A DNA stretch of 25,955 nt. Source: a virus. Under the pieces are notes generated by a model, which worked only from the letters and a program-made list of their open reading frames with translations, was not told where the DNA came from and ran no database searches. The first letter of the stretch is position 1. Each line of letters opens with the position of its first letter. Location of the stretch: positions 1-25,955 of the IMG/VR virus record IMGVR_UViG_3300020195_001266. One strand, written 5' to 3'. Below, piece by piece: positions 193-23,936 of the stretch. A program made the translations under genes and the position numbers.

Positions 193-802
193 TTACCTTT
201 CTATAAAGCCCACTAAAAGCAGGTTGTTTCCGCCAGCCATAAGTTAAACCGTCCGTTTTATAGTCCAGGTACCAAACAGTTTCAAAGCCATCCTTAAGGT
301 AATAGTTGAGATAGTCCGGGTTAATATTGTGGACATGGGCTGGATGAGGGTGGGTAAGAGCGTTGTTTTGCGCGTGGAGGTGGGCAAAGAAAGCCCCCCG
401 TTTCATAAAGGTTGAAAGCGCACCTAAGAAAAGCTCAGGATCTTCAAAATGGTCCATGGCGTTTGTCACAATAATTAAATCAGCATCTGACAACCTCTCT
501 TCTAAACTCTCAGCCCGGTCAGACAAATAGTTGGTACAGGGATAGTACTTTGAATATTCATACACCAACGGGTCAAACCTAAGGATCTCTTTGGCATTGA
601 GCAAAGAAGAAACGCCGCCTAAAGGCCCTGCCCCTATATCAAAGACTATCATATCTGAAGTATCTAAATGGTCAAGTCCCATCTGTTTTTTTAAAAGGGG
701 ATAGCGGATGGATTCACGCTGGGCTTTCTCCCTTCTTTCTTTTTCGTTAGGGATAAGCCATGTGGCTGCTTCTTTTTTTTGGATCTGGTTAAATGTCTTC
801 AT
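182..802 (-). CDS. SAM-dependent methyltransferase-like protein
   Basis: This 206-aa protein shows a class I SAM-methyltransferase outline. A glycine-rich motif I (VFDIGAGPLGG, about residues 53-63) follows a hydrophobic strand. An acidic residue at the end of strand 2 (RFDP, about 75-78) would bind the ribose. A strand reading ADLIIVTNAMDHFEDP (about 107-122) matches motif IV. The acceptor is unknown. It overlaps the upstream methyltransferase gene by 14 nt and the downstream glycosyltransferase-like gene by 11 nt, so the three are probably co-translated. Its place among glycosyltransferases suggests methylation of a sugar or sugar precursor, which is inference. The fold is fairly secure, the substrate is not. 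Confidence 0.65.
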   Translation of the reverse strand: MKTFNQIQKKEAATWLIPNEKERREKAQRESIRYPLLKKQMGLDHLDTSDMIVFDIGAGPLGGVSSLLNAKEILRFDPLVYEYSKYYPCTNYLSDRAESLEERLSDADLIIVTNAMDHFEDPELFLGALSTFMKRGAFFAHLHAQNNALTHPHPAHVHNINPDYLNYYLKDGFETVWYLDYKTDGLTYGWRKQPAFSGLYRKVNDD

Positions 803-1310
803 ATCTTTTTACTTCAGTATAGGGCAACTCCCCCCCAGGCTTGTTTGGGATTAACTCGGCAGTAATATTTTCTCCGTTTAGGGGATCAGCCTCCAGCTTT
901 TTTAAATGCCAATGGCCTTTTAAATACCCATGGGGGTCAATGTTCCCCTCATTGTCAGGTACCAGAAAGAAACTAAAAGTCCCTTCGATAAAGTGCAGCT
1001 TATGGTCTGGGTGGATGTAGAAAGCCGGAGTTCCGGCCTTGGGTACCTCGATATGGATATACCCGTCAGGCTTTAACACCCTGTGTGCCTCTTCCATAGC
1101 ATGGAACAACTCATGGGAGTAGAAGTGTTCAAATAGATGGATACTTTTGATATAGTCCACCGAGTTATCCTCAAACGGCCAGATTTCTTTACCTACGTTC
1201 AGAACATAATCCACTCTCTTAAAGGGGCGGATGTCCAATCCATACCACTTCTCTTTCTCATTATCCTCAGGTTTTCTCATACCCGAGCCTAAATCTATAC
1301 AAATATTCAT
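789..1310 (-). CDS. Class I SAM-dependent methyltransferase (Methyltransf_11 type)
   Basis: This compact 173-aa protein begins almost directly with motif I (ICIDLGSG, residues 3-10). Then come an acidic motif II (GLDIRP, about 24-29), motif IV (SVDYIKSIHLFEHF, about 50-63) and the helix-strand pair HRVLKPDGYIHIEVP (about 76-90) that is characteristic of Methyltransf_11 domains. The histidine-rich stretch after it (near 100-107) may sit in the acceptor site. It starts 3 nt after the preceding glycosyltransferase gene and overlaps the next methyltransferase by 14 nt. The substrate is not deducible. The operon suggests glycan modification. Confidence 0.75.
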   Translation of the reverse strand: MNICIDLGSGMRKPEDNEKEKWYGLDIRPFKRVDYVLNVGKEIWPFEDNSVDYIKSIHLFEHFYSHELFHAMEEAHRVLKPDGYIHIEVPKAGTPAFYIHPDHKLHFIEGTFSFFLVPDNEGNIDPHGYLKGHWHLKKLEADPLNGENITAELIPNKPGGELPYTEVKRYEDI

Positions 1311-1313
1311 AAC

Positions 1314-2033
1314 TCAGAGATAGTTTGTCTGGTATTCATAATAGTCCTCCAAATGCCCCCAATCTTTCCCCTTGTTGGCTACAATTGATTTCTTTTTTTC
1401 ATAAAGCAGTGATTCATTGGCATCCCCGATGGCTTTTTGGGGTGGACGGTTATGGTATTGGTGAAAAATCCTCAGCTCATCCAACACACTATGCTTAACC
1501 CCGTTTAACCCTAGCCTATACATCAAATCATTATCATCATTCCCCCACAGAACAAACCGTTCATCCCAACCGCCTACCTTCAGCAATTCCTTTTTCAAAA
1601 CCCCGGCACTAAAAGGAGCTTGGGAATGGTAGGTGACATTTTCATTGCTAGGGATATCCCCTTCCCACCTGCCTGAGTAGAGAGTACCCGGGACAAGGAA
1701 CTGTTTGGGGTCAAGCCTCAACTCACTTTCAAATACTTCGATACAAGGGTACATATGCATTACCTCAGGGTCATTTACAACAATCATCTTGTTTTGGGCT
1801 AACCTTAACCCAATGTTTTTAGCCAGACAGCCCCCCTTATAGTTTCCCTCAAACATCTGGACATACTGGAAAGGGAAGTCCAGGGTGTTTAAATATGGTA
1901 TCCAGTCTTCCTCATCCCCATCCGCCACAATAATAATTTCATCCTCCCTTGTAAGCTGGGTCTTTAAGGTTTCCCAAGTAAATCTAAAATAACTCAATCT
2001 GTTAAAAGAAGAGATGATAACTGACTTACGCAT
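1314..2033 (-). CDS. Glycosyltransferase family 2 protein with galactosyltransferase-like C-terminus
   Basis: The 239-aa protein has an N-terminal GT2 start (SVIISSFNR, residues 4-12), a second strand EIIIVADGDEED (about 32-43) and AKNIGL (about 71-76). A degenerate metal-site region reads VVNDPE (85-90) where GT2 enzymes carry DxD. The segment GGWDERFVLWGNDDNDL (about 154-170) matches the Glyco_transf_7C pattern in which an acidic patch holds the acceptor. A late histidine pair (FHQYH, about 190-194) is also typical. It is predicted to transfer a sugar from an activated nucleotide sugar in the cytoplasm, with donor and acceptor unknown. The ATG shares one base with the stop of the upstream GT2 gene. 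No signal peptide or membrane segment is seen. Confidence 0.82.
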   Translation of the reverse strand: MRKSVIISSFNRLSYFRFTWETLKTQLTREDEIIIVADGDEEDWIPYLNTLDFPFQYVQMFEGNYKGGCLAKNIGLRLAQNKMIVVNDPEVMHMYPCIEVFESELRLDPKQFLVPGTLYSGRWEGDIPSNENVTYHSQAPFSAGVLKKELLKVGGWDERFVLWGNDDNDLMYRLGLNGVKHSVLDELRIFHQYHNRPPQKAIGDANESLLYEKKKSIVANKGKDWGHLEDYYEYQTNYL

Positions 2034-2908
2034 CAGCTATCTTTGTCCTCCTTCCTCTGGAAGTTAGCATCTCCCACCCATGAGGCTGGTGGCTCCCAGT
2101 CCAAGCCCCATTTTCTATATACTTCACCGGTCTCTTTAATGATATCTATGCCATGCTTTTCATCAATCCTTTTAACGCATTCCTGGATGAACTGAGTCCT
2201 CTCAGGAACAATCTCATGGGGTTGATGCCAGCCTAACAGGCCTTTATCCATAGAAAATACCGCCCCGCTTTCCCATAAGGTTAAGCCAAAGTCGCCATCT
2301 TCCACCCCGGATAACATGGTTTCATCATAGCCACCTGCTTTAAAGAAAAGATCCCTTGGGATCATTAGTGAACCGCCGAAACAAGCTAAGGCAAAACCTA
2401 AACCTTTGTTTAACTCATCTGGAGAATGCTCTTCAAATGACTGCCAACGTATATCTTGTGAGTAATCAGTAATGTTTTGGTACCAGAGTGGATGGTCTGT
2501 CTCAATGTCTTTGTTGACAAAATGGTAAGGCCCGATTAAAACCCGGTTGGGTTGTTGCTTCTCGCTCCAAATATCTATATACCTTTGGATCCTATCTGGA
2601 GGCAGCAGGATATCCGAATCTAAAAACAGCAGACAATCCCCGTCAGTCCGTGAAATCCTAGCCCCCAGGTTGCGGGGGATAGAGGCATTCCAAACTGTCC
2701 GGTTGTTGCGGTAGATATACTTTAAGTTTTTGGTGTTTTGGGCGATGTTTTTTAAGATAGATACACCTGTCTCATCGGTCGAGTTGTCATCCACCACAAT
2801 AATCTCCACCTCTTGCTCATCCCTAATCTCCTGCCTTTGTAAACAGATCAGCGTCCTAACGATATTGTTTCTTCTGTTCCATGTGGGGACAATCACACTC
2901 AGTTTCAT
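2033..2908 (-). CDS. Glycosyltransferase family 2 protein
   Basis: The 291-aa protein is a textbook GT2 domain. It has MKLSVIVPTWNR (1-12), EIIVVDDNSTDET (about 35-47), the DxD metal motif in LLFLDSDILLP (D97-S-D99), and the base/acceptor region GGYDETMLSGVEDGDFGL (about 192-209), whose ED pair matches the usual catalytic acidic residues. Known members transfer sugars from UDP or GDP donors onto lipid-linked or protein-linked acceptors. The ATG overlaps the stop of the upstream glycosyltransferase by 4 nt (ATGA), which indicates translational coupling. The tail after about residue 250 is charged, with no membrane span. Donor and acceptor are unknown. Confidence 0.88.
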   Translation of the reverse strand: MKLSVIVPTWNRRNNIVRTLICLQRQEIRDEQEVEIIVVDDNSTDETGVSILKNIAQNTKNLKYIYRNNRTVWNASIPRNLGARISRTDGDCLLFLDSDILLPPDRIQRYIDIWSEKQQPNRVLIGPYHFVNKDIETDHPLWYQNITDYSQDIRWQSFEEHSPDELNKGLGFALACFGGSLMIPRDLFFKAGGYDETMLSGVEDGDFGLTLWESGAVFSMDKGLLGWHQPHEIVPERTQFIQECVKRIDEKHGIDIIKETGEVYRKWGLDWEPPASWVGDANFQRKEDKDS

Positions 2909-3669
2909 GCTCTAAATTCTCCTAAAATCTTCTGTGCCCTACCTGTATCCACCCAAATACTATCATATCTTTGCCTGTTTAAAGCCTCATGCTGGTGTCT
3001 ACCTGGAGAACCGTGATGTAGATGCTGGATGGATGCTTGTCCGTTATACCATATCTTATACCCTAACTCCCTGGCTTTCAAACAAAAGTCGGTATCCTCC
3101 CAACCGTTGATGTAGCCTTCATCCAACCCTCCCACCTTGTCCCAAACCTCACGCTTGACCAGCATACAGGCAGCTGTCACAGCCGGAACTTCCCTGATAG
3201 TCCTGACCCTGTCATCATTGGGGATAATCCCGGGTGAGAACCCCTCTACAGGCTGTCCCAGCTCGTAAGGGACATAGGTATCAGTAAAAACCACCCCGGC
3301 GTGCTGAACCTTAGGTTCACTATCCATCAGCCAGATCAGACAGCCCACAATCCCTATGGCTGGGTCTAAATCAAAGGTTGTAAGCATCCTGGACAAGAAC
3401 CCCTCAGGCACCATAGTGTCATTGTTTAAAAGTAACAGGTACTCCCCCTGAGCCAGTTTGGCAGCCTGGTTGTTAGCCTTGGCAAAGCCCAGGTTCTCTT
3501 TGTTTATCTTAATGATGCATTCGTAGGTAGACAGGTAATTGACAGTCCCATCCCTGGAGTTGTTGTCTACCACAATAATCTCGGTATCCTTCTCTCTGGA
3601 GAGGGTAGGCATCAGTTTGGCTAAATGATATAGTCCAGCGGTCATTGTAGGTATCATAATCGAGATCAT
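2905..3669 (-). CDS. Glycosyltransferase family 2 protein (rhamnosyltransferase-like)
   Basis: This GT2 enzyme has about 254 residues from the ATG at 3669. The frame can be extended to a TTG at 3684, but the ATG lies one base after the stop of the preceding gene and starts directly with MISIMIPTM, the normal first strand. It shows EIIVVDNNSRDG, ENLGFAKANNQ, and NND in LLLLNNDTMVP in place of DxD. This combination is typical of the WbbL/rhamnosyltransferase branch of GT2. The acceptor-side segment GGLDEGYINGWEDTDFCLKA carries the conserved E-D-x-D. It is followed by HLHHGS, as in that branch. Identity as a rhamnosyltransferase is a family-level guess and GT2 membership is secure. Confidence 0.87.
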   Translation of the reverse strand: MISIMIPTMTAGLYHLAKLMPTLSREKDTEIIVVDNNSRDGTVNYLSTYECIIKINKENLGFAKANNQAAKLAQGEYLLLLNNDTMVPEGFLSRMLTTFDLDPAIGIVGCLIWLMDSEPKVQHAGVVFTDTYVPYELGQPVEGFSPGIIPNDDRVRTIREVPAVTAACMLVKREVWDKVGGLDEGYINGWEDTDFCLKARELGYKIWYNGQASIQHLHHGSPGRHQHEALNRQRYDSIWVDTGRAQKILGEFRA

Positions 3670-3670
3670 T

Positions 3671-4156
3671 TTAAGGGACGTCAAAGTAAAGCCGCATGTC
3701 CATCAAAGGTAACATCTCCGGTTGTCCCCGGGCTTGGATATAGTCAAAGGTCAAAGAGATACAGCGCCCATTAGGAAAGATAGGGTAGAGCAGTTCTTCC
3801 AAAGTCTTTTTATCCAAAGGAATATCAGTCAAAGGCTGTTTGTACTGATAAGCAATCATACAGTCATAGGCCAGCACTCTCCTTAACCTCTTCATAACCG
3901 GCTTACCCAACTGCCTGGCCATCTGCCAATAGACATTATGGGCAAAGTATGTCCGGTCATCAGTGATCCAGCGGTAGGGGAAGACAAAGGTAACAGAAGG
4001 GTTACCCAGCCCCCCTGACTCGTCCTCCTCATCTAAAGCCGCAAAGGAAGACATATCTAAATCAGGTTCAGGTTGGGGAGCATCATCAGTATCTGTAGGG
4101 AGCGGTATGTCCAGGGTGTTGAGGTTATGGGGCTTTTCCTTCTTTGGGACATCCAT
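3671..4156 (-). CDS. Hypothetical protein, acidic N-terminus, first gene of the minus-strand operon
   Basis: I do not recognise this 161-aa protein. The first 55 residues are low-complexity, rich in Asp, Glu and Pro (segments such as DTDDAPQPEPDLD and ALDEEDESGG), and look disordered. The remainder is a compact mixed domain with aromatic strands (VTFVFPYRWITDD, AHNVYWQMARQ) and a C-terminus ending MRLYFDVP. There is no signal peptide, membrane helix or cysteine cluster. It is the promoter-proximal gene of the glycosyltransferase/methyltransferase operon, and its ATG sits 6 nt from a -10 element, so it is probably translated from a leaderless message. It could be a structural protein or an operon-specific factor, but nothing decides between them. 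Confidence 0.6.
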   Translation of the reverse strand: MDVPKKEKPHNLNTLDIPLPTDTDDAPQPEPDLDMSSFAALDEEDESGGLGNPSVTFVFPYRWITDDRTYFAHNVYWQMARQLGKPVMKRLRRVLAYDCMIAYQYKQPLTDIPLDKKTLEELLYPIFPNGRCISLTFDYIQARGQPEMLPLMDMRLYFDVP

Positions 4157-4674: not shown

Positions 4675-4678
4675 AGCT

Positions 4679-4837
4679 ATGTTAATAATCCAGAAGTATT
4701 GGGCATGGTTAGGGAGTGGGAGTAGGAGTTGGAGTAGGAGTAGGAGTGAGAGTTGGAGTTGGAGTTGGAGTTGGAGTAGGAGTAGGAGTAGGAGTAGGAG
4801 TGGGAGTAGGAGTAGGAGTAGGAGTGGGAGAAATTAA
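4679..4837 (+). CDS. Dubious ORF made of Ser-Arg/Ser-Trp repeats
   Basis: An ATG 5 nt after the preceding stop opens a 52-aa frame. Its first 12 residues ([12 protein letters not shown]) are ordinary. The rest is a two-residue repeat of Ser with Arg, Trp or Gly (one Glu), dictated entirely by the hexanucleotide array. There is no ribosome site. It may be translated, but the sequence is best explained as a DNA repeat, and I list it only because the frame stays open through the whole array. Confidence 0.15.
4712..4825 (+). repeat. Hexanucleotide array (GGAGTN-type), 19 units in perfect phase
   Basis: GAGT recurs every 6 bp from 4714 to 4822, giving 19 units with no spacing error. The two bases between copies vary (mostly AG, TG or GG, once GA). 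The plus strand is almost pure purine plus T, with a GG pair in nearly every unit, so two-layer G-quadruplexes are possible. It lies between the 104-aa gene and the broken nuclease gene, about 300 bp before terS. Candidate roles are a packaging or replication recognition site, a protein-binding iteron array, or a slippage-prone tract. Nothing in the window decides. Confidence 0.9.
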
Positions 4838-4839
4838 AA

Positions 4840-5129
4840 ATGTTAGGTATTAAAGACAAACAGGAGATTGACCACAAATTCGATTCCCAGCAATTAGATG
4901 AGACTTTAGGTAAGATAGAGCTCGTGGTATAGCTGCCAGAAACTTTGTCCAGTCTAAACTCCCACCGGGTAATCTTGTGAAAGTAGATACCTTTAAGGAT
5001 AAAAAGGAGAAGTATGGCAGGTACCTGGCCAAGGTCAGTTATATTACAGAGGATCTCACTTCTTCTGTTTGTATAAATGATGAATTAATTAAAAACGGTT
5101 TAGCCAAAGAATATTATGGAAGAGCTTAA
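4840..5129 (+). pseudogene. Frameshifted staphylococcal-nuclease-like (thermonuclease) gene
   Basis: Two frames together spell the C-terminal two thirds of an SNase domain. From the ATG at 4840 the first frame gives [14 protein letters not shown]...LDETLGK, where LGI is like the LxGIDxPE strand. After a -1 shift near 4914 the second frame gives DRARGIAARNFVQSKLPPGN, then KYGRYLAKV and LIKNGLAKEYYG. Those last three segments are the classic SNase motifs (R-x-F helix, YGRxLA, LI-x-x-GLA-x-Y). The N-terminal barrel strands with the calcium-site DGDT are absent; the repeat array lies where they would be. A single missing G after GGTAAG explains the break, so sequencing error, programmed shift or true decay are all possible. 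It ends 2 nt before terS. Confidence 0.6.
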
Positions 5130-7220: not shown

Positions 7221-9129
7221 CCCCATTTCCGGTACTATAGATAAAGCAGTACCAAAGATTAAAACCAATGTTAAGTACCATGCCCCTAAAAAGACATCAG
7301 ACAAGCCCTATGCCATGAAAGATGGTCAGGGCAATAAAGCCCCTGATCTATCCAAGTTACTGGGTTGGAGGGACTTTAGTAAGGCTGCATCCCAAAGGAA
7401 GCATTGGGAATGGTTTGTAATCGACCAGTTCTTAAGGGGTAACCATTCAGTCAAGGGAGATTCCAACAATAACTCTATCATCCTGTCAAGAAAGGGGGAC
7501 AGGGTAGACTACCCCTTAAACAAGATCTTCTCTACCTTCAGGGCGGTTAGAGGATATGTAACAAGGCATAAGCCAAAGGTTACGGTAGAGCCTGAGAACT
7601 CGGGTGATGAGAAAAGCGTTGATTATGCCCGTAAGTCTAACAAACTACTTGATCGTGATAACCAGTTAAACAACTTCAGGAAGATCAACAAGGAATGGGT
7701 ATACTACGGCGTTAAGTACGGTGAAGGTTATAGGCAGATCGGTTATGACACAGTCAACAAGCGCTCCATCAGGTGGACAATAGATCCATTTGACTTAGGG
7801 ATAGGTTCCAAGGTGGGAGAGTTTGAGGATGCCCCTTACCTGGTTAAGTCCGTTGTCAGGACAGTAGGTTACTTAAGGAACAAATTCCCTAAAGAAGCTG
7901 CTTCAATAGTACCTGATAACCAATTAGCCTTCGATGAATTTAAAAGGATGGCTTTGGAGCTGCAGTACCCCAACACTACCCCCAAGGACACGCTAGATGA
8001 TAGCGAAGAGACAGCTATAGTCCATGAGTGCTGGTATAGGATGTTTGAACCCAACAGCAAGGGAGGGCTTGTTAATAAGTGCACCTTTACCGAGACTGCT
8101 ACCCTAGACCATGAAGAAACCCCATATAAAGACTACCCTTTTATTGTCTACAAATCCGACATCACCCCCAATGAGGTACACGCTGAAGGACATCTAAAGC
8201 ATGTGATTGCCCCCCAAAGGATGTTAAACCTTCTTAACACCCAAGTACTGGAGTATAACCACTTAACTAACAGGGGAAGATATATGATGGATAAAAACTC
8301 AGGCTTTAAGCTGATTACCACCAAAGAGGGACAGATCATCCTAAAGAATCCCGGCAAACAAGTCATCTCACTGCCAATTCCAAGCCTAAATCAGCTGATC
8401 CAATGGCAGATCCAGTTTGCCTCAGAGCAGATAGAAGACCTAGGCGGACAGCATCAAGCATCCCTAGGTGCTACACCCCCTAGGATCTCTACAGGTAATG
8501 CTATAGAAGCCCTACAGTCCGGGGATAGTAACAACATATCCGATTTAAGGGATAACTTTGAAGATGCTCTAGCTGCAGAAGCAGCCTGGATACTTAGGGT
8601 ATATTCCCTGTTTGAATCAGATGGCGTAACGGTCAACTATGCTGACGAGGAGGGCACTGACAAGTCATTTAGGGCCTACGGTTCACAGGCTGTTAAGGAG
8701 TCAGGACGGGATGTACCCTCAAAGTACTTTACTGAGGAGTCAGATGATTATGTTGATGCTTATGCTGTTTTACCTGAGAACCAGGTTAAAGTCACCGTTA
8801 CATCAGAGCTGGGAGAGAGTAGGCAGGCAAGGCTGCAGCTGTTGATGGATCTGGTGGATAGGGGTATGCCACTTAAGTTCTTGCTTGAAAACATTGAGTT
8901 CCCTAATGCAGGCGATGTCTTTGAAAGGATAGCTTCAGAATCAGTAGCAGACATGATGATGCAGAAGATGGCAGAGCCTCCCCAAGTTGGACCTGATGGC
9001 CAACCAATGCCTCAAGGACCTCCGGGAGCTATACCTCCTGATGGAGCGCCACCGCCTGGAGAGGGAGCACCCCCGGATGACATACTGGCGCAGCTTGAAA
9101 CGCTGGCCCAAAATACAGGAGGACAATAA
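7210..9129 (+). CDS. Portal protein
   Basis: The 639-aa protein (from the ATG with the Shine-Dalgarno) would form the dodecameric portal ring through which DNA enters. N-terminal features are typical of P22/T7-style portals: WFVIDQFLRGNHSVKG, then the helix FSTFRAVRGYVTRHKPKVTV, which is frequent in these proteins. Near two thirds, GGQHQASLGATPPRISTGNA precedes a helix-rich stem and crown (SGDSNNISDLRDNFEDALAA). The last 60 residues are Pro/Gly-rich (MPQGPPGAIPPDGAPPPGEG) and end in a short helix, so they are probably flexible. Position directly after terL and the size support the call. It is followed by a 1-nt overlap (TAATG) with the next gene. Confidence 0.85.
   Translation: MKSNPISGTIDKAVPKIKTNVKYHAPKKTSDKPYAMKDGQGNKAPDLSKLLGWRDFSKAASQRKHWEWFVIDQFLRGNHSVKGDSNNNSIILSRKGDRVDYPLNKIFSTFRAVRGYVTRHKPKVTVEPENSGDEKSVDYARKSNKLLDRDNQLNNFRKINKEWVYYGVKYGEGYRQIGYDTVNKRSIRWTIDPFDLGIGSKVGEFEDAPYLVKSVVRTVGYLRNKFPKEAASIVPDNQLAFDEFKRMALELQYPNTTPKDTLDDSEETAIVHECWYRMFEPNSKGGLVNKCTFTETATLDHEETPYKDYPFIVYKSDITPNEVHAEGHLKHVIAPQRMLNLLNTQVLEYNHLTNRGRYMMDKNSGFKLITTKEGQIILKNPGKQVISLPIPSLNQLIQWQIQFASEQIEDLGGQHQASLGATPPRISTGNAIEALQSGDSNNISDLRDNFEDALAAEAAWILRVYSLFESDGVTVNYADEEGTDKSFRAYGSQAVKESGRDVPSKYFTEESDDYVDAYAVLPENQVKVTVTSELGESRQARLQLLMDLVDRGMPLKFLLENIEFPNAGDVFERIASESVADMMMQKMAEPPQVGPDGQPMPQGPPGAIPPDGAPPPGEGAPPDDILAQLETLAQNTGGQ
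9117..9122 (+). promoter_or_regulatory. Shine-Dalgarno sequence of the 609-aa structural protein
   Basis: AGGAGG lies 6 nt before the ATG at 9129, inside the last portal codons. Confidence 0.65.
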
Positions 9130-10958
9130 TGGATAAGAAGAGAGCCCAGGAACTGATATCAAAGATTCAAAAGAATATTGAGAAGAAGAATACCCAACCT
9201 ACAGACGAACATATCCTGACAGTTAAGTTAAGGGAGCCTAAAGAACCTGAGGCAGTAGTTAAAAAGCTGGGTGAAGTCCAAAATGCCCTGGTAAAAGCCT
9301 TTGATGAGGTCAAGGTTACCTATGAGAAGATGGATTTTAACCCCAAGGTTGAGGTGAAAGCCCCCAACGTAACCTTAAATGCCCCTGATACAGTCAAGGT
9401 TGATAAACCCGGGTGGTTAAATGAGCTAAAGCCCGAGAAAATGCCTGATTTAGGCCCCATTGCGACTACCTTAGAGAAAATATCGTCCTTTAAGCTGCCT
9501 ACAGGCCCTGAAAACCCTATCCCCGTCAGGTTATCCGATGGCAAGGCGTACTACAACGCCCTGCAGGCTATGTTTGGGGGTGGAGGTTCATCCTCAAGCT
9601 CTTTCCAGCGCCTTGACGGTCAGATAGAAAAGGCCAGGCTAACAAACAGCAACTACTTAATAGTAGTTAATGCAGATGGTACGGCTATAGGTGGAGGTGG
9701 AGGTGGGTCAGGCACAGCTGCATACTCTGACTCAGGAGGGGTAGACAAAAAGGGTTTAGTAGATGCTGACAGACACGTTCAGGTAGATGTCTTAACAGCT
9801 CCCGTAACAGCCGTCACTGGTACGTTCTGGCAAGCTACTCAACCAGTTAGCGGAACGATTACAGCAAATATAGGTACGGTTGCAACTCTAGCCACTGCCG
9901 CTAACCAACTCGCAAACAACCACAATGTTGTAGTGACTTCAGCTCCCACCACAGCGGTCACAAATGCGGGCATCACTTCAATAGACGGCAAAACTCCAGC
10001 CTTGGGACAGGCTTTAGCAGCAGCATCAGTTCCTATTGTTTTAACAGCTGCTCAGGTTACGACCTTAACTCCACCAGCAGCTATAACAGGCTTTGCTACC
10101 TCAGCCAAACAGGATACTTTACTTACGGAGCTACAACTCAAAGCGGATTTAACTGAAACTCAACCAGTATCTTTAGCTTCCGTGCCTTCTCACGCTGTTA
10201 CAAACGCAGGCACTTTTGCTACTCAAGCTACTTTGCAAACTGGATCAGCTGCTATTGGAAAATTAGCTGCAAATTCTGGAATTGATATTGGTGATGTGGA
10301 TGTGACTTCTATTGTTGCCGGAACTGGAGCTGCTAACTTAGGTAAAGCTGAGGATGCAGCCCATGTAACTGGTGATACCGGAGTAGCTATCTTTGCAGTT
10401 AGGCAGGATACCCTAGCAGCCTTAGCCGGTACTACAGGTGACTATATTCCACTCTCCACCGACTCCTCAGGCAGGTTATATGAAATATCAAGACCAGATA
10501 ATTATGCAGTTGATGATTCCGTTATGCCGGCAACTCCTAACACCTTTCCTGTTAGTGGGGAATACAGGGCTACCGCTACAACTTATGCAGATGGGGATGT
10601 AACGGTTTTACAAGCGGATGTTAACGGCAACGCTAAAATTACTCAAGCCACAGCTATAGCCGGAGAAGACTTAACCAATAATGTATTAAAGGTCGAACAG
10701 CGTTCAAGCTACACCAATTTAACAGTCGATACAGCCGTAAAATCAGCACCAGGTAGGTTGTTTGGGATCTTTGTAGCCTCTGCCTCAGCTACCCCAACTA
10801 TCAAGATTTGGGATAACACTTCTGCTGCAACAACTGTCTTAATCAACACCTTTACCCCCGTTGCAGCGACTTACTACCAATTCCCAGGGGTAGAATTTGG
10901 GGTTGGACTTTATGTTGATGTAGGGGGAACAGTTGATATTACCGTATTTTATAAATAA
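9129..10958 (+). CDS. Fibrous virion structural protein
   Basis: The 609-aa protein is built of successive parts. Residues 1-60 are a Lys/Glu-rich helix that may be a coiled coil. Next comes a short beta-repeat stretch (VEVKAPNVTLNAPDTVKVDK). The segment PIPVRLSDGKAYYNALQAMF and a glycine linker follow. The middle is long and Thr/Ala-rich with imperfect repeats (PVSGT, VTNAG). DTLAALAGTTGDYIPL is a motif widely seen in phage surface proteins. The C-terminal 55 residues (IKIWDNTSAATT onward) form a beta domain that recurs in the 192-aa protein at 15798. It probably forms a head fibre or tail appendage, with exact placement unknown. It is translationally coupled to the portal. Confidence 0.7.
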   Translation: MDKKRAQELISKIQKNIEKKNTQPTDEHILTVKLREPKEPEAVVKKLGEVQNALVKAFDEVKVTYEKMDFNPKVEVKAPNVTLNAPDTVKVDKPGWLNELKPEKMPDLGPIATTLEKISSFKLPTGPENPIPVRLSDGKAYYNALQAMFGGGGSSSSSFQRLDGQIEKARLTNSNYLIVVNADGTAIGGGGGGSGTAAYSDSGGVDKKGLVDADRHVQVDVLTAPVTAVTGTFWQATQPVSGTITANIGTVATLATAANQLANNHNVVVTSAPTTAVTNAGITSIDGKTPALGQALAAASVPIVLTAAQVTTLTPPAAITGFATSAKQDTLLTELQLKADLTETQPVSLASVPSHAVTNAGTFATQATLQTGSAAIGKLAANSGIDIGDVDVTSIVAGTGAANLGKAEDAAHVTGDTGVAIFAVRQDTLAALAGTTGDYIPLSTDSSGRLYEISRPDNYAVDDSVMPATPNTFPVSGEYRATATTYADGDVTVLQADVNGNAKITQATAIAGEDLTNNVLKVEQRSSYTNLTVDTAVKSAPGRLFGIFVASASATPTIKIWDNTSAATTVLINTFTPVAATYYQFPGVEFGVGLYVDVGGTVDITVFYK

Positions 10959-10964
10959 TAACTT

Positions 10965-12314
10965 ATGCTAAGACAGGTTATACGAAACTTTGGAACGTGT
11001 TTAAAATTCAATGGTACTTCAGACGTTGTTACTGTAACTAACGTTGCTGCGCTAAGGTTAACTTCTGCATGGACAGTCGCTGCTTGGGTCAAGTTTACTT
11101 CCCGCCCTAATGGAACTGGAGTAATATCAACTGCTTATTCTGCTGGTTCTGTGATGTATGAATTGGGGTTTGGGTTCGAAGAAGGTGGAGGCGGTACTTC
11201 TAAATTAAAGGTTGGTTTTTATACTGGCGCTGCTTGGGCAATATGTGCAGATACTCTTGATATAGGATTAACTCACAAAAACCAATGGATGCACATTGCA
11301 GGTACCTGGGATGGGACTACCTTAAAATTATATAAAGATGGTACTTTAATTAATACTAACGTTCCAGGAGTAAGTGATGTTTCAAGTACTAATTCAATTT
11401 ATCTTGGCAGAAGACATGATGCTGCTGGATCTGTAAACTTTTTTCCAGGTTACATTGATGACCCTATTATTATTGATACTGCTTTAACAGCAGCCCAGAT
11501 AGAGACTTTATTCACCGGGGCAGTCCCTACACCAACCGGAACAGTCTCCAGATGGTTGTTTGACGAGGGATCAGGAACAACGGCTAACGATGCAGTCAGT
11601 ACAAACCATGGCACCATCACAGGAGCTACCTACTCTTCGGATGTGGTAATGGTTAACCGAAGTGTATTGGGACCTGCTGTCTGTACATTTTTACAAAACA
11701 CCAGTGATTTAACCACCCAAACCACTTATACTTTTGCTGCACAAAATTTAGGCACTGCTAGTGCAGAACGGTATATTATTTGTTCTATCGTTACAAGGAA
11801 GGCTGGGACGGGTGGAGCCATAAATACAGTCACTATTGGAGGAATAAGTGCAACTATTGTAGGACAGGTTACAGGAACTAGTGATGGCAATTCTATGGTG
11901 ACAGGTATTGCAATAGCAGTTGTGCCTACAGGGACTACAGGTACTGTGGTGGTTACTCTAAACGTAGCCCATCTTCGTTGTGGAATAGCCCTTTACGCTG
12001 CTACCTCAGTTGGGACAGCAGCTGTGAGTGAGGTGCTTACCTCGACGGCAACAGACCCTACCGTTACCCTTGATATCCCTGCTGGTGGTTTTGCCGTTGG
12101 AGTAGCGGGTATGGGGGCTTCTACCAGTGCGACATGGACAGGTTTAACAGAAACTTATGACGATCCCTTCCAGGCTTTTTGCACTCAAAGCGGTGGAGCA
12201 CTCACCTTTGCAGCTGCACAAACAAACTTAGCTATTACCTGTGACTTTGCTGGAGCAGCTGCTGCCTCGGGGGTATTTGCGTCTTGGGCTGGGAAAGTTA
12301 GGATAGCAGTCTGA
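10965..12314 (+). CDS. LamG-domain adhesin (virion surface protein)
   Basis: The 449-aa protein starts with the short seam peptide RQVIRNFGTCLKF, then a concanavalin-like LamG/jelly-roll domain (about residues 15-185). Visible marks are WTVAAWVKF, the strand pair HIAGTWDGTTLKLYKDG, IYLGRRHD and GYIDDPIIIDTALTAAQIE. After a linker (SRWLFDEGSGTTAND, GTITGATYSSDVVM) comes a different Thr/Ala/Gly-rich beta region of about 220 residues with no recognisable family. LamG folds bind carbohydrates or glycoproteins, so a host-attachment role is likely. Both the seam peptide and the GTITGATYSSDVVM linker recur in the gene at 16382. No Shine-Dalgarno is present; a TATAAA lies 9 nt before the ATG. Confidence 0.75.
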   Translation: MLRQVIRNFGTCLKFNGTSDVVTVTNVAALRLTSAWTVAAWVKFTSRPNGTGVISTAYSAGSVMYELGFGFEEGGGGTSKLKVGFYTGAAWAICADTLDIGLTHKNQWMHIAGTWDGTTLKLYKDGTLINTNVPGVSDVSSTNSIYLGRRHDAAGSVNFFPGYIDDPIIIDTALTAAQIETLFTGAVPTPTGTVSRWLFDEGSGTTANDAVSTNHGTITGATYSSDVVMVNRSVLGPAVCTFLQNTSDLTTQTTYTFAAQNLGTASAERYIICSIVTRKAGTGGAINTVTIGGISATIVGQVTGTSDGNSMVTGIAIAVVPTGTTGTVVVTLNVAHLRCGIALYAATSVGTAAVSEVLTSTATDPTVTLDIPAGGFAVGVAGMGASTSATWTGLTETYDDPFQAFCTQSGGALTFAAAQTNLAITCDFAGAAAASGVFASWAGKVRIAV

Positions 12315-15687: not shown

Positions 15688-15798
15688 ATGCCTCAAAATA
15701 AATTGAGCTTAAGAGAGAAGATCAAACAAAAATCCAATACTATGCAGGCACAAAGCTTTATGAAGAAATTCCATGAGATGAAAAAGAAAGGTAAATAA
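15688..15798 (+). CDS. Very small basic protein (36 aa)
   Basis: The ORF starts MPQNKLSLREKIKQKSNTMQ, continues AQSFMKKFHEMKKKGK and stops in TAATG, sharing its last base with the next ATG. It is strongly basic and helical. Two things support it as a gene: the tight coupling to the 192-aa structural gene, and the promoter-like box whose predicted start is at this ATG. Nothing in the sequence indicates a function. A DNA- or RNA-binding peptide, or a leader used only to couple translation, are both possible. Confidence 0.5.
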   Translation: MPQNKLSLREKIKQKSNTMQAQSFMKKFHEMKKKGK

Positions 15799-16376
15799 TG
15801 GCTACACTTGGAGCAGGCAGATACAGCGTAAATACCCCCAACCCCCCCGCTGGTGACCAGGGCGAGGTACCTTTAAGGGTTAACCAGGATGGATCTTTAC
15901 AAACTTCAGGTGGTGGCTCCGCCACCGCAGATGGGTCAACATTTACCCCAGGGACTACCAGCGGAACAATAGCCGAAGGTGTCTACGAATCTACACCGAC
16001 CACAGTCACCGACAATAAGGCCGCGGCTATAGGGATTGACAACAAGCGGAACGTCAAAGTCACCCTGGGCACGGCGCTGGCCAAGACCATCGATTCGGTG
16101 ACCGTCAGGCCAGAGGCCGCCACCTACACCAACATCACTGCCAGCACGCTCATCAGGACGGGAGCGGGTATCCTGGTCGGGATGTACGTCAACAGCACCT
16201 CCACGGGGACGATTAAATTCTGGGATAACACCTCGGCAGCCACTACAGTTATCAATAACACCATCACCCCAGCGATCGGCTGGCACAACTTGGGGAACGC
16301 TGCCTTCACGACAGGGCTCTATGCTACGATAGCCAGCACCCTCGACGTAACTATCTATTGGATCCCAACACCTTAA
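15798..16376 (+). CDS. Virion structural protein with shared C-terminal beta domain
   Basis: The 192-aa protein starts MATLGAGRYSVNTPNPPAGD and has a Gly/Ser/Thr-rich N-terminal half. After TDNKAAAIGIDNKRNVKV, the C-terminal 57 residues (TGTIKFWDNTSAATT onward) match the end of the 609-aa protein at 9129 very closely: both have IKxWDNTSAATTVxxNTxTP and finish in a strand DxTxxW/F. The shared piece is probably a trimerising or capping beta domain of surface fibres. The stretch about 16010-16340 is visibly richer in G and C, with C/G-ended codons, than the flanking genes. It is coupled to the 36-aa ORF upstream. Confidence 0.65.
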   Translation: MATLGAGRYSVNTPNPPAGDQGEVPLRVNQDGSLQTSGGGSATADGSTFTPGTTSGTIAEGVYESTPTTVTDNKAAAIGIDNKRNVKVTLGTALAKTIDSVTVRPEAATYTNITASTLIRTGAGILVGMYVNSTSTGTIKFWDNTSAATTVINNTITPAIGWHNLGNAAFTTGLYATIASTLDVTIYWIPTP

Positions 16377-16381
16377 TTACT

Positions 16382-17764
16382 ATGTCCAGGACTACAGCAG
16401 CTCAAAGACATATAGTTAGAGACTTCGGAACGTGTGTTCGAGTTCCGGGAGGCGCCTCATCGTCTTGCTCGACACTCGCCAATGGGGTCTGGACTACGGC
16501 AAAGACCAACGTTAGCATGGGCGCATGGTTCAGGACATCTAACTACAAGACTGACAGACAGCCGATCATTTCTAATGGGTTGAGTGCGGCGAGTAATACC
16601 GGATATGCATTAATTCTTAGCGGCAACGGTACTACGGATGGATCTATCTATATCCTGAACCATAATGTTGTGTGGATAGACGCTGGCTTTAAGGTCCAAG
16701 ATAGTTCTCGACATCACATTATGCTTACTGTTGATGGCTCAGGAAATGCCGTAATATATCTCGATGGCATAAGTAGATATACGGGAACTCCTCCGATCGG
16801 TAACCCCTCTGCTAACAGCAATATCGGCAATGATGGGGCTGCTAACTTCTTTGGCCTAATTGATGACGCAAGATTCTATTCCCGTCAACTCACTAGTACC
16901 GAGGTTTTAAACCTGTATTATGGAATAGAACCTTCTCCTGGACCTATCAACTGGTATAAGTTTGATGAAGGGTCTGGTGCAACAGCCAGTGATAGCGGAT
17001 CATCAGCTAAAACGGCTACGATTGATGGATATACGTATTCCACAGATGTCTTCATGAAACCTAGAACTACAGCAGCACAAAGACAGGTAGTTAGAGACTT
17101 TGGGACGTGTTTGAATTTTAGCACTAGTGGGGGTACCAATGAAGTGATCAAGACAGGAATCACTGGAGTAAATTATACTGAATTTAGTGTTTCTATCTGG
17201 TTAAAGCCATTTAGACAAACAGGTAATTCTGGTTATTGTGACTTCTGGGGAATAGAAGGGGCTTCAGCAAGTAAGCTGGTATTAGAATCAAATTCAACAT
17301 TCCCCAATGTATTCATCATTAGTGGTCTTGCAGGTGGTGATTCTATATCCACTTCCAAGAATATGGTATCAGATGGTCTTTGGCATAATTTAGTCTACAC
17401 AGCGTCAAAATCTGGAAATAGTGCCGTTCTATATCTTGACGGAGTCTCAATAGGCACTTCAGTATGGAACCCTGCATCAGAAAATATCACAAATTTTACA
17501 GTGGCTAATCGTACTGCGACAGATGCTAGAGAGGCAAGTGGCTTTTATGATGAGGCAATCCTCTTTTCCAGAAGTCTCACAGCAGCAGAAGTAACAGGTA
17601 TTTATTATGGCACTAGTATCCCAGCGGAAAGAATACTCTACTGGAAGCTCGATGAAGGTAGTGGCACTTCAGCCACAGACTCATCAGGTAACTCTAACAC
17701 GGGTACCATCACAGGCGCTACCTATTCCTCAGATGTGGTAATGTTAGCAAGGACAACAGCATGA
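16382..17764 (+). CDS. Double LamG-domain adhesin
   Basis: The 460-aa protein (ATG at 16382; an in-frame ATG at 16358 lies inside the previous gene) holds two LamG/jelly-roll modules. Each is preceded by nearly the same seam: SRTTAAQRHIVRDFGTC at the start and PRTTAAQRQVVRDFGTCLNF in the middle (about 17057). Module marks are ISMGAWFRTS-type strands, HHIMLTVDGSGNAVIYLDG, FFGLIDDARFYSRQLTSTEV, and in module two SVSIWLKPF, LVYTASKSGNSAVLYLDG and FYDEAILFSRSLTAAEV. Each module ends with WYKFDEGSG or WKLDEGSG plus GYTYSTDV or GATYSSDV. The protein stops at ARTTA, the first residues of a third seam, as if cut at a recombination joint. It is likely a carbohydrate-binding virion adhesin. Confidence 0.78.
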   Translation: MSRTTAAQRHIVRDFGTCVRVPGGASSSCSTLANGVWTTAKTNVSMGAWFRTSNYKTDRQPIISNGLSAASNTGYALILSGNGTTDGSIYILNHNVVWIDAGFKVQDSSRHHIMLTVDGSGNAVIYLDGISRYTGTPPIGNPSANSNIGNDGAANFFGLIDDARFYSRQLTSTEVLNLYYGIEPSPGPINWYKFDEGSGATASDSGSSAKTATIDGYTYSTDVFMKPRTTAAQRQVVRDFGTCLNFSTSGGTNEVIKTGITGVNYTEFSVSIWLKPFRQTGNSGYCDFWGIEGASASKLVLESNSTFPNVFIISGLAGGDSISTSKNMVSDGLWHNLVYTASKSGNSAVLYLDGVSIGTSVWNPASENITNFTVANRTATDAREASGFYDEAILFSRSLTAAEVTGIYYGTSIPAERILYWKLDEGSGTSATDSSGNSNTGTITGATYSSDVVMLARTTA

Positions 17765-17765
17765 T

Positions 17766-18242
17766 ATGGCAGCTCCACAACCAGTAGCAGAAAACTACGC
17801 ACAACCGGCCTTACCTACCACCAAGTCAGGGTGGGCTATTAACTGTTTAGATTACCAGATACTCACCAAGTCAGACGGATGGAACCAGAGCCAGGCAGCC
17901 CGGCTTAATGAGTTTCAGGAGGCTGTAAATGTAGGTGGCATTAACTATGTGGCTTTAGCTTTCCCCTCATGTAAAATCATGATCGGAGAATGGGGTTTTC
18001 ATACAGTGACTGATTATGGAGAGGGTGTGCAGTATGGAACTTATGACCGAGTTTGCACAGCCCTTAGGAACAAAAGCTTTGTGATCGGAGTTAACTTTTG
18101 GAATCACTTAGGGCAGACTCAGTCGTCACTCTGGACAGATGCATCAGGGACTATAATCAAGGGCGGGAGGAAAGCAGTTAACGCACTAAGATTGGCATTT
18201 AACGCAGGAAACAAAACCTTTGGTTGGAGGGTTAGGATTTAA
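17766..18242 (+). CDS. Glycoside-hydrolase-like protein, C-terminal half only
   Basis: The 158-aa protein has MIGEWGFHTVTDYGE (about residues 72-86) and later GVNFWNHLGQTQSSLW (about 128-143). A strand ending in E-W-G, followed by a helix and a strand ending in F-W, is how the last barrel strands of many (beta/alpha)8 glycosidases read, with the Glu as nucleophile. The first 60 residues do not supply barrel strands 1-6 or an 'NE' acid/base, so alone it would lack half the catalytic pair. It may be a truncated enzyme, a non-catalytic sugar binder, or a partner of the complete glycosidase that follows 5 nt later. No Shine-Dalgarno is seen. Confidence 0.5.
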   Translation: MAAPQPVAENYAQPALPTTKSGWAINCLDYQILTKSDGWNQSQAARLNEFQEAVNVGGINYVALAFPSCKIMIGEWGFHTVTDYGEGVQYGTYDRVCTALRNKSFVIGVNFWNHLGQTQSSLWTDASGTIIKGGRKAVNALRLAFNAGNKTFGWRVRI

Positions 18243-18247
18243 TAATT

Positions 18248-19735
18248 ATGTCTTATGTCACCCGTTCAGGTTCAGAATTCAGGCTAGATGGTAAGAAGTT
18301 TAGATTTATCGGGTTTAACTACTACCCCGGTATTATAGACCAGCCCTCACAAGCCTCAATCCAAACTTTATTTACCAATGCCCTCAAAAAGGGTGTGACA
18401 GTTTTTAGGATGTGGTGTTTTGACAGGGGAAACTTACCCACTAACTCCACAGGTAACTTTAGATATGAGTCAGGAGGAGCATTACTGCAAAGGGAGGCAA
18501 CCTTTGCCCATTTAGACATGGTGCTGGATGAAGCCAGGCAACGGGGTATTAAGGTTATTTTATCTCTATCAGATAACCCAACCTATAAAACCAAGGAAAA
18601 TTATGTTCGGTGGTCGGATGCGATTCACGGTACTGATTACTGGACTCCTATATCCAAGTCAGTCTCAGGGGCAGTCTTGGCTTCCAACACCATAACAGTT
18701 ACCACAGCCGCAGCTCATGGATACCATGTTGGGCAAATTGTTACTACCTCAGGTGCAAACGAAGCTGACTTTAATAATGGGGCATTTATCCGGACTGTGC
18801 CTACAACCACAACCTTTACCTATGCTAAAACAGGAGCCAATGCCACAGCTACGGGAACCATGGCAGTCATCAGAAATGCTTCCTACAAGACCCAGAACTT
18901 TTACAGGGATTCCAACTGTAAGCAAATGTTTAAGGATTTTGGGACTATTTTGGCTGACCGGACAAATACCATAAACGGTAGGGTTTACAGTTCAGATGAT
19001 ACTATCTTTGCCGTAGAGATGGGAAATGAGCTTAGGTATGACCAGGATAATGACCCTTGGATAAACTCAACCTCTTCCCATAACTTAACCACTATGGAAA
19101 CCTGGATAACTGAGATGGCCTCACACATCAAGACTAAATTCCCCAATCACCTGTGTACATTCGGGGCAATGTCGCATACCTGGCAGTGGAATGATGGTGA
19201 CACCGTCTCTAACGGAACTTATTACGGAGTTGATTATGGCCGGATTTCTGCAATGACAAATATTGACTACCTGGATTTCCACCTTTACCCAAACCAGGCA
19301 GACAATGTTAATTTACAAACCTTTGGCCAGAGGTTAGGTTGGCCTAATTCAGTGTCCAAGGGTGGATTCTTAGCCCAGATTAAAGATTATATCTCTGTAG
19401 GACATGCTAACGGAAAACCTGTTGTTTGTGCCGAAACAGGGCTAGTGAGTGAAATTACAGCTTCAAGGGTGCATTATCCGCTATACCCCAGACACGACTA
19501 TATGAGGCAGTTTGCCAAGGACTTTTTTGGATTTGGTGGGGATGGTATTCTCATCTGGCATGCAGCCTCAGGTGCAACATCAGGCAGTTATGATGTGGCT
19601 TTAGCTGCTACAGGCGGAGAGAATATTAACACTAATTCAAACGATACTAAACTAGTCTCAGTAATTCATCAAATGAACTACAACGCTAATGGTCAAAGAA
19701 TCCCAATAGAAGCAATAAGCGGAATTGATATCTAA
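18248..19735 (+). CDS. GH5-type glycoside hydrolase (mannanase-like) with inserted beta domain
   Basis: The 495-aa protein is a (beta/alpha)8 glycosidase resembling GH5 mannanases (GH5_7 style). It opens EFRLDGKKFRFIGFNYYPG, then GVTVFRMWCFDRG. The acid/base is in FAVEMGNELR (Asn260-Glu261), HLYP near His345, the nucleophile in VVCAETGL (Glu396), and the substrate-binding LIWH at Trp437. Both catalytic Glu are present, so it is probably active. Residues about 138-208 interrupt the barrel with a small beta domain (NTITVTTAAAHGYHVGQIVT, then TTTTFTYAKTG) of a type common in phage fibres. There is no signal peptide, so it is likely virion-borne and degrades a host surface polysaccharide. Confidence 0.82.
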   Translation: MSYVTRSGSEFRLDGKKFRFIGFNYYPGIIDQPSQASIQTLFTNALKKGVTVFRMWCFDRGNLPTNSTGNFRYESGGALLQREATFAHLDMVLDEARQRGIKVILSLSDNPTYKTKENYVRWSDAIHGTDYWTPISKSVSGAVLASNTITVTTAAAHGYHVGQIVTTSGANEADFNNGAFIRTVPTTTTFTYAKTGANATATGTMAVIRNASYKTQNFYRDSNCKQMFKDFGTILADRTNTINGRVYSSDDTIFAVEMGNELRYDQDNDPWINSTSSHNLTTMETWITEMASHIKTKFPNHLCTFGAMSHTWQWNDGDTVSNGTYYGVDYGRISAMTNIDYLDFHLYPNQADNVNLQTFGQRLGWPNSVSKGGFLAQIKDYISVGHANGKPVVCAETGLVSEITASRVHYPLYPRHDYMRQFAKDFFGFGGDGILIWHAASGATSGSYDVALAATGGENINTNSNDTKLVSVIHQMNYNANGQRIPIEAISGIDI

Positions 19736-22272: not shown

Positions 22273-22824
22273 ATGGGAATCATCACAAAACCAACCACCC
22301 ATGTTGACGGTACGGTTCCAACGGCAGCCCAGTTTAATGGGAACTTTGATACAATCTACAACGAGTTTAACGGTAACATCTCAAATGCTAATGTCTTAGC
22401 TGCGGCTGGACTTGCAGAATCCAAGGTAGCCTTCTCCACCTCAACTGGACATACACATAACGGGACTGACTCCAAACTTATTTCACTTCGGGCTTCATAC
22501 GGAGGCTTTATTTCCGGTACCCCCGCCGTTGCAAATGACCTAGCTACTAATCCAAGGGTCAGGGTAGCTGCTACAGCTACCAGGCTATCTGCCTATGCCA
22601 GGACTGCACCTACGGGAGCAGATCTAATTATTAGGGTTTGGAACGTGACCCAAGCTGCAACCGTCACCTCAGTAACTATTACAGCCGGTACCCAGTCGGC
22701 CTCTACTACCACGATTACTAATGCAACGCTCGTGGCTGGAGATTTTCTAAGATTTGACGTAACCCAGATTGGATCTACTGTAGCTGGAGCAAACATTACA
22801 ATTCAGCTGGATGCGAGTGAATAA
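22273..22824 (+). CDS. Tail tip or fibre protein
   Basis: The 183-aa protein begins MGIITKPTTHVDGTVPTAAQ, then FNGNFDTIYNEFNGNISNAN. A segment with 'GTVPTAAQFNxNFDTIYxxFNG' is a common N-terminal attachment segment of phage tail-tip proteins. It is followed by TGHTHNGTDSKLISL, a histidine-threonine-rich strand typical of fibre shafts. The C-terminal 100 residues are a beta sandwich-like domain (RVRVAATATRLSAYARTAPT, DLIIRVWNVTQAAT) of unknown specificity. It is one gene before the glycine-rich adhesin and shares the TAATG overlap with it, so the two may assemble into one receptor-binding structure. Confidence 0.65.
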   Translation: MGIITKPTTHVDGTVPTAAQFNGNFDTIYNEFNGNISNANVLAAAGLAESKVAFSTSTGHTHNGTDSKLISLRASYGGFISGTPAVANDLATNPRVRVAATATRLSAYARTAPTGADLIIRVWNVTQAATVTSVTITAGTQSASTTTITNATLVAGDFLRFDVTQIGSTVAGANITIQLDASE

Positions 22825-23936
22825 TGGCAATCTTTTTAACTTATGGTGATGGAAGGTCAGGGTCAGCCGCCGGGGTTTCCGGAACAGTTAATACTTACGC
22901 GACATGTACGGGAACTTCTGGAACTAGAACTGTTACAACTACTTTAACGGTTGCAATTGGTGATCTAATTTTTCTTTATCAAACTACAGGGACAGGGGCA
23001 ACTAATTGTGAAATGCTCAAGGCTGCAACAGCTACCTCAGGAGGAGCGTTTACCTCTACTACAGCCCTAGTTAATACCTATGCTTCAGGCGCCCAAGCTA
23101 TTAAAGTTCCCCAATACACTTCTGGCACTACCGGGGCTTTGTCTTGTCCGGCTTGGGACGGTTCTTCCGGAGGAATTGCGGTAGTCCTAGCAAATGGAGC
23201 GTTAACTATCGCGGCTTCAACTAGCTGGAATGCTAAGGGATTTCGGGCGGGAATAGCTGGAGGTTCACAACATACAGCCGGTACTCAAGGTGAAGGAACT
23301 TTAGGAACAGGGGCGGTTGGTACAAATGCGGCCAATGCTAATGGAGGAGGTGCCGGAACTGATACCCATGATAATTTTGAAAGTGGAGGTGGAGCAGGAG
23401 GTGGTAATGGTGTTGCTGGTAATCAGGGAATAGACAATGGTGGAGGGGAAAGAGGTCTGGGTGGACTTGTTTCGGGAAATGCTGCGTTATCTGCTTTCTC
23501 TCTGGGAGGCGGCGGGGGCGGAGGATCTGCTGCACATAATAGTAGTGCAATTGGCGGGGCTGGTGCCATTGGCGGAGGGGGCTTAATTGCTTTTGCACCC
23601 TCTCTAACAATAAGTGGAGCTAACACTTTTACTGGAAATAATGGTTCTGATGCACAAAATCCAGGTGCGGGTGGCGGAGGCGGAGGTGGAGCAGGTGGAT
23701 CATGTTTGTTAGGAGGTAATTCTGTAGCTTTAGGATCTAGTTTACTGACTGCTGCTGGAGGAACTGGAGGTAATGCTTTTTCTGGAGCAACATTACCTGT
23801 TGGAGGAGCTGGAGGTAATGGTAGATTTGCAGTATTAGCTCCTGTTTCCTCAGCAGTTACAGGTACAGTCGGGATTGGTTATACTTTCACAGCAGATAAC
23901 AGCTTATCTCAAGGGTCACAGGGGTATATAATATAA
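22824..23936 (+). CDS. Glycine-rich adhesin (possible polyglycine-helix tail tip)
   Basis: The 370-aa protein has a beta-rich N-terminal part (FLTYGDGRSGSAAGVSGTVN and following, to about residue 140). From about 150 to 315 it is dominated by glycine runs (GGGAGTDTHDNFESGGGAGG, LGGGGGGGSAAHNSS, GAGGGGGGGAGG) separated by short loops. A known precedent is the gp38 adhesin of some Salmonella phages, in which glycine segments pack as polyglycine-II helices and the loops bind receptor. By composition and position this fits, but there is no sequence-level proof. It is coupled to the tail-tip protein by a 1-nt overlap. Confidence 0.65.
   Translation: MAIFLTYGDGRSGSAAGVSGTVNTYATCTGTSGTRTVTTTLTVAIGDLIFLYQTTGTGATNCEMLKAATATSGGAFTSTTALVNTYASGAQAIKVPQYTSGTTGALSCPAWDGSSGGIAVVLANGALTIAASTSWNAKGFRAGIAGGSQHTAGTQGEGTLGTGAVGTNAANANGGGAGTDTHDNFESGGGAGGGNGVAGNQGIDNGGGERGLGGLVSGNAALSAFSLGGGGGGGSAAHNSSAIGGAGAIGGGGLIAFAPSLTISGANTFTGNNGSDAQNPGAGGGGGGGAGGSCLLGGNSVALGSSLLTAAGGTGGNAFSGATLPVGGAGGNGRFAVLAPVSSAVTGTVGIGYTFTADNSLSQGSQGYII

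Follow-up and report, generated by a model that had tools for sequence, protein, structure and literature searches.

The window, a linear 25,955-bp metagenomic virus record from IMG/VR that carries phage genes, holds at positions 18248–19735 (+ strand) a GH5 (GH5_7-type) glycoside hydrolase gene, in whose product the catalytic (β/α)8 barrel is predicted to be opened at the β3–α3 loop by a second domain, a small six-stranded β-barrel of the phage endosialidase kind. The window, a podovirus-like fragment, encodes a P22/SU10-type portal, a phrog_267 major head protein and an SU10 adaptor, and the GH5 gene lies within its head-tail morphogenesis block. The reading that we favor, and that we consider about evenly poised between right and wrong, is that the β3–α3 loop of a phage GH5 endo-β-mannanase-type enzyme received a mobile endosialidase-barrel/FCCH domain, which would work extracellularly as a glycan-binding addition.

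The open reading frame is intact, begins with ATG and encodes 495 residues. In a phmmer search of the PDB with this protein, GH5 β-mannanases come first (3pz9, E = 6.7e-24; 4qp0, 4e-22; 1rh9, 1e-15), and these best three alignments are split, covering residues ~11–131 and ~216–441 and leaving the ~85 residues in between uncovered. The full-length AF2 model (pTM 0.80) has a confident (β/α)8 barrel core, and Foldseek relates it to GH5_7 mannanases, the top match being 8gf3 (BlMan5_7; E = 1e-24, TM 0.86 by target). The N-terminal barrel part (residues 1–131; 18248–18640, + strand), delimited by the PDB alignment at 11–131 and the AF2 model, contains β1–β3 and Arg54. The C-terminal part (residues 216–495; 18893–19732, + strand), delimited by the PDB alignment at 216–441 and by conservation, runs from α3 to β8 and holds Asn260, Glu261, His345, Tyr347, Glu396 and Trp437.

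GH5 enzymes are retaining glycosidases with the active site at the C-terminal ends of the barrel strands, i.e., an Asn-Glu acid/base at the end of β4, a Glu nucleophile on β7, Arg on β2, His/Tyr on β6 and Trp on β8; the β3–α3 loop is on the same face. The retaining-GH5 residue set is complete in the window protein (R54, N260-E261, H345, Y347, E396 and W437). Among 41 relatives, the acid/base pair Asn260-Glu261 (19025–19030, + strand) is conserved as Asn in all 41 and as Glu in 40, the nucleophile Glu396 (19433–19435, + strand) in 40, and the substrate-platform Trp437 (19556–19558, + strand) in 39, whereas Arg54 and His345 are invariant (41/41) and Tyr347 is found in 36. The protein is, as judged from sequence and model, a complete GH5 enzyme of the GH5_7 β-mannanase type with predicted activity, and the earlier note, which had called it a complete GH5-like glycosidase with Asn260-Glu261, Glu396 and the substrate tryptophan intact, is borne out. 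Pfam gives no PF00150 match at E 1 and NCBIfam no family match, a chance match to NlpE being all that the two return; the PF00150 profile is probably missed because of the interrupted barrel and the divergence of the window GH5.

Between the two barrel parts lies the whole extra segment (residues 132–215; 18641–18892, + strand), bounded by the gap in the PDB alignments, the comparison with relatives and the linkers. It comprises these linkers and the nested six-stranded β-barrel domain (residues 137–208; 18656–18871, + strand), which is defined by PHROG matches, the A7 family profile described below, AF2 and Foldseek. Searching 84,980 genome species, together with viral contigs, for the GH5 core yielded 80 genomic and 2 viral relatives, and loop length was compared across 76 well-aligned relatives (74 cellular, plus the viral L019 and L020). 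The stretch equivalent to Asn110–Phe218 is 108 residues long in the window protein versus 19–41 residues in all 76, and no bacterial homologue examined has the segment. Bacterial and other GH5_7 β-mannanases (3pz9, 8gf3, 4qp0 and 1rh9) have the same barrel, catalytic residues and HLYP/NE motifs, but their β3–α3 loop is short and lacks the phage-type insert. The insert domain is also absent from the loci of the genomic GH5 relatives, of L019 and L020, and of the syntenic phages considered below.

PHROG matches are confined to residues 135–207 (phrog_9998, E = 6.6e-8; phrog_5838, a virion structural protein, 2.7e-6). Under a phage-domain profile built without the window sequence, the insert reaches 55.8 bits; among 2,000 composition-matched shuffles the highest score is 12.2 bits. 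The full-length AF2 model has a separate small β region between helices 115–126 and 217–237, connected by linkers (132–137 and 205–212) of low pLDDT; the pLDDT of the insert itself is ~50–75, and the relative placement of barrel and insert is not fixed by that model. Modeled alone with its family, the insert forms a six-stranded β barrel at a pLDDT of 94.3. These profile matches and models identify the insert as an autonomous nested domain of predicted fold, neither a chance match nor a long native loop. A fibre-type β domain at about 138–208, spliced into the GH5 barrel, is what had been claimed earlier, and both its nature and its bounds prove right; neither of the two outcomes that would have spoken against it, a predicted fold that merges the segment with normal barrel loops or bacterial homologues that share it, was encountered. 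That an assembly or frameshift artefact fused two genes, a concern raised by the source being a 25,955-bp metagenomic virus record, is close to refuted already: matching GH5 halves flank the domain in one frame, which a single mis-join cannot yield, the same domain is nested in other phage proteins too, and there are no repeats at the insert boundaries. A direct-repeat origin of the insertion was also rejected, the boundaries sharing no k-mer of at least 7. The insert has a G+C of 0.478 versus 0.427 for the flanking halves, with equal GC3, values that are uninformative on foreign origin.

By phmmer, the insert alone retrieves only noise from the PDB, and a 66-member profile is needed to place it. 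An earlier alignment of the family (A3) proved too divergent for scanning. The 66-domain profile, A7, must be read with caution for circularity, the window insert being one of the two seeds used to gather its members; the PHROG matches and the shuffle test with the window-free profile depend less on that seed. With the window row removed, the profile recovers window residues 137–205 at E = 9e-21. Against the PDB, A7 matches the phage endosialidases first, 4hiz (4.6e-6) ahead of 1v0e and 3gvj (1.5e-4), followed by a phage tail protein and the E1 FCCH domain (0.011). Direct matches to PF12195 (endosialidase barrel) or PF16190 (E1 FCCH) are given by 12–13 of the 66 members, the window insert itself having neither. 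Foldseek with the insert-alone model finds 4hiz (TMq 0.80), 1v0e (0.77) and E1 (0.73–0.81), at E values of 0.002–0.01. Profile and predicted fold together place the insert with the β-barrel of phage endosialidases (1v0e and 4hiz) and the FCCH domain of ubiquitin E1. E1 ubiquitin enzymology was rejected as a function of the insert; what is shared is the domain fold alone.

The same domain is widespread in phage proteins. In a family scan of viral sequences, seeded with the insert plus the phage homologue closest to it, at least 208 domain relatives were confirmed among the 600 stretches listed, and in the 103 carrier ORFs among the matches listed the domain is nearly always internal, in 1–5 copies. 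Carriers among these matches include the tail sheath phrog_205 (in L010 and L017), a phrog_6268 protein, the major head protein phrog_1357, the head-tail adaptor phrog_783, the major tail protein phrog_792 and the structural protein phrog_3287. The tail sheath, phrog_6268 and major head protein carriers are at L010:13713–15104, L010:9473–10333, L017:9800–11233 and L139:2730–3860, and the 211-position profile of phrog_6268 spans a 286-aa domain-bearing protein. On this evidence the barrel domain looks like an all-purpose phage module for insertion into loops.

The closest precedent for the arrangement in the window is the K1F endosialidase tailspike gp17 (1v0e), in which PF12195 (424–506) is nested in the catalytic propeller PF12217 (313–754); of the structures known, this K1F barrel is also the nearest relative of the insert. 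Like the window GH5, gp17 is a phage glycanase with a member of the same small barrel family inside its catalytic fold. Unlike the window GH5, it is a six-bladed propeller in a trimeric tailspike, with a T7-type N-terminal anchor, a stalk, a chaperone and polysialic acid as its substrate. As judged from profiles and models, the window gene repeats the K1F design in another catalytic fold. The K1F barrel carries a binding site for polysialic acid, and deep mutational scanning shows it to be a hotspot of host discrimination (PMC12632334); that site is specific for sialic acid, and the window barrel is likened to the K1F barrel by family and fold. A comparable design is seen in the tailspike gp49 of Pseudomonas phage LKA1, where a six-stranded β-barrel within the catalytic fold deepens the substrate groove (PMC6966330), and the nesting is visible in Pfam, with PF20745 at 281–368 and catalytic matches on either side. 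Unlike the GH5 barrel, gp49 is a β-helix lyase. Its barrel was rejected as a homologue of the window barrel, given that it has no match to the window domain profile, and serves as a design analogy only.

Because the K1F barrel bears a polysialic-acid site, a substrate-binding role for the insert would, by analogy, be at least as likely as docking. A docking element, as the earlier note proposed, or an oligomerization element that fixes an ordinary GH5 onto the virion is credible too, if somewhat unlikely as the whole account, given that the domain is carried mostly by virion proteins: among the matches listed, the family is chiefly embedded in tail sheath, major head, head-tail adaptor, major tail and phrog_3287 proteins. 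The GH5 match in the window protein starts at residue ~3, with no T7-tail, other virion anchor or trimeric-spike domain detected by Pfam, PHROG or NCBIfam, which leaves the barrel as the one recognizable candidate anchor of a protein encoded within a structural block. However, the endosialidases, the sole enzymes of known structure with this domain, attach to the virion by a separate N-terminal T7-tail domain (PF03906), and it is their barrel that has the glycan-binding site (PMC12632334). The role of the insert may also be purely structural, as the family is embedded in non-enzyme sheath, head, connector and propeller-like virion proteins too.

The nearest homologue found for the window GH5 is that of L019 (IMGVR_UViG_3300010396_000010), with 35% identity over the core (E = 5e-36). 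The two are sisters in the GH5 tree (support 99/94) with long branches on both, and the L019 enzyme does match PF00150 (E = 3e-7). It lacks the insert, having 30 residues in that loop and a C-terminal extension instead, and is encoded in the tail-gene block of a siphovirus-like contig. Beyond this pair, tblastn of the window GH5 against 50,697 phage records gave no match, the window GH5 alone as a query against viral contigs found none, and the window GH5/L019 core recovered the L019 contig again and none besides; a viral structure library contains other phage GH5 proteins at TM ~0.45. The window branch measures 1.5 changes per site and the insertion is near the active site, both of which might suggest that the insert wrecked the enzyme and left a catalytically dead structural relic. 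We judge this very improbable: the catalytic residues are all intact and the frame is open, the G+C of the gene agrees with that of its neighbors, the insert is in a loop and is predicted to fold alone, and the long branch is common to the L019 homologue. We note that the other viral relative, a more distant GH5 of 472 aa in L020, is followed directly by a LamG gene and then by a gene for a repeat-rich β-helix-like protein (L020:9455–14460), so that a LamG/GH5 neighborhood recurs there as well as in the window.

The window was compared with a synteny set of eight phage loci (L002–L009) whose major capsid proteins (MCPs) are 45–72% identical. Where the loci extend far enough, the common order is portal, variable block, scaffold, MCP, a gene of the 15017 type, a variable slot, adaptor and a propeller-like protein. 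The GH5 gene is between the MCP and 15017–15646 genes and the SU10-type adaptor, adjoining a LamG gene. This second variable slot holds one 114–125-aa protein in L002, L005, L006 and L007, 98-aa and 267-aa proteins in L004, and in the window 15798–16376, a two-LamG gene, 17766–18242 and GH5. The product of 15798–16376 (+ strand) has its C-terminal domain in common with that of 9129–10958 (34% identity, E = 9e-24). The two-LamG protein (16382–17764, + strand; PF13385, E = 8.5e-27, two stretches), upstream of GH5, is a paralogue of that encoded at 10965–12314. The two paralogous pairs, 10965–12314/16382–17764 (LamG) and 9129–10958/15798–16376 (sharing the IWDNTSAATTV-domain end), flank the scaffold and MCP genes in two variable slots, and suggest a repeated cassette of surface proteins. 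We also note that 15798–16376 has a G+C of 0.558 and a GC3 of 0.637, versus 0.445 for the window, unlike every other gene measured, and may be a recent import.

Immediately upstream of GH5, 17766–18242 (+ strand) encodes a 158-aa protein that resembles the β7–β8 end of a GH barrel (GEWG...NFW). Its segments KIMIGEWGF and IGVNFWNHLG are in register with GH5 Glu396 and Trp437, and hhalign against A5 gives an E value of 0.05, which is suggestive only. It has no match in Pfam, the PDB, phages, plasmids or viral contigs, and is possibly a relic of a second glycosidase.

The GH5 and barrel domain are absent from all eight syntenic records, the A7 screen of which had no positive control. As these records contain no counterpart of either the enzyme or the insert, both are accessory, as they would be if the gene were an auxiliary metabolic gene, its enzyme made in the infected cell and, once lysis frees it, breaking down mannan of plants or microbes, the insert being neutral. 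A soil viral GH5 has been read in that way: the recombinant GH5 endomannanase from Stordalen Mire (Emerson et al. 2018) is active on glucomannan and galactomannan, and this enzyme with activity on plant polymers was interpreted as the product of an auxiliary metabolic gene (PMC6786970). It resembles the window enzyme in being a virus-encoded enzyme of the mannanase type in a viral context, and the description by which we compare it mentions no nested barrel (PMC6786970). For the window we regard this explanation as quite unlikely. No signal peptide is apparent by eye. The gene sits within the morphogenesis block with the LamG and adaptor genes on its sides, and the presence of a virion-type domain in the enzyme would make little sense without some role in virion or glycan contact. 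Glycosidases as virion components are already known in GH25 (PMC4870245), and the virions of SSV19 break down host N-glycan by means of a putative endo-mannanase tailspike (PMC12042106). The combination had earlier been called unusual; this holds in that no other GH5 with this barrel turned up in the collections searched, whereas viral GH5 mannanases, one of them shown to be active (PMC6786970), and barrels nested in phage glycanases were both known already.

Other features of the window are recorded here as observations. On the – strand, 789–3684 encodes a methyltransferase and three family-2 glycosyltransferases, scattered relatives of which occur in related phages (gt1/gt2 in L004, gt5 in L002 and a methyltransferase-like gene in L005). 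In the ORF at 4677–4877 (– strand), Ser-Tyr, Ser-Asn and Ser-His dipeptides follow one another in a long run; this DNA repeat lies immediately upstream of the gene for the small terminase. The 370-aa protein of 22824–23936 is very Gly-rich, with a GC3 of only 0.23, and has a weak likeness to the model of the N-terminal part of the gliding-motility protein AgmC (NF047640, E = 2e-11, under the model cut-off).

In the mechanism that we favor, a mobile phage β-barrel would have entered the β3–α3 loop of a phage GH5 endo-β-mannanase-type enzyme. The protein, which the virion probably carries, would act extracellularly and cut a β-mannan-like or other surface or matrix glycan. Because TIM-barrel topology places the β3–α3 loop on the catalytic face, the nested barrel is expected there as well; hinged by its short linkers at that end and near the cleft, it would add a glycan-binding surface. 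We also put forward a broader proposal, tentatively and with somewhat less than even confidence: the endosialidase/FCCH barrel would be a general mobile module put into loops of unrelated folds (the sialidase propeller, the GH5 TIM barrel, the tail sheath and the major head protein), which in GH5 re-targets an acquired mannanase to a glycan relevant to the phage and adds a substrate-holding site, convergently with the sialidase propeller.

Phage depolymerases are mostly β-helix or propeller spikes, and their specificity changes by swaps of whole domains. If the proposal is true, one small mobile domain would be reused to adapt unrelated glycanases, as illustrated by a TIM-barrel mannanase with an endosialidase-type barrel. 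Insert-free relatives, such as the phage enzyme of L019, make the role of the insert directly testable, and the answer would inform the question of whether viral mannanases labelled ‘auxiliary’ act in carbon metabolism or in infection.
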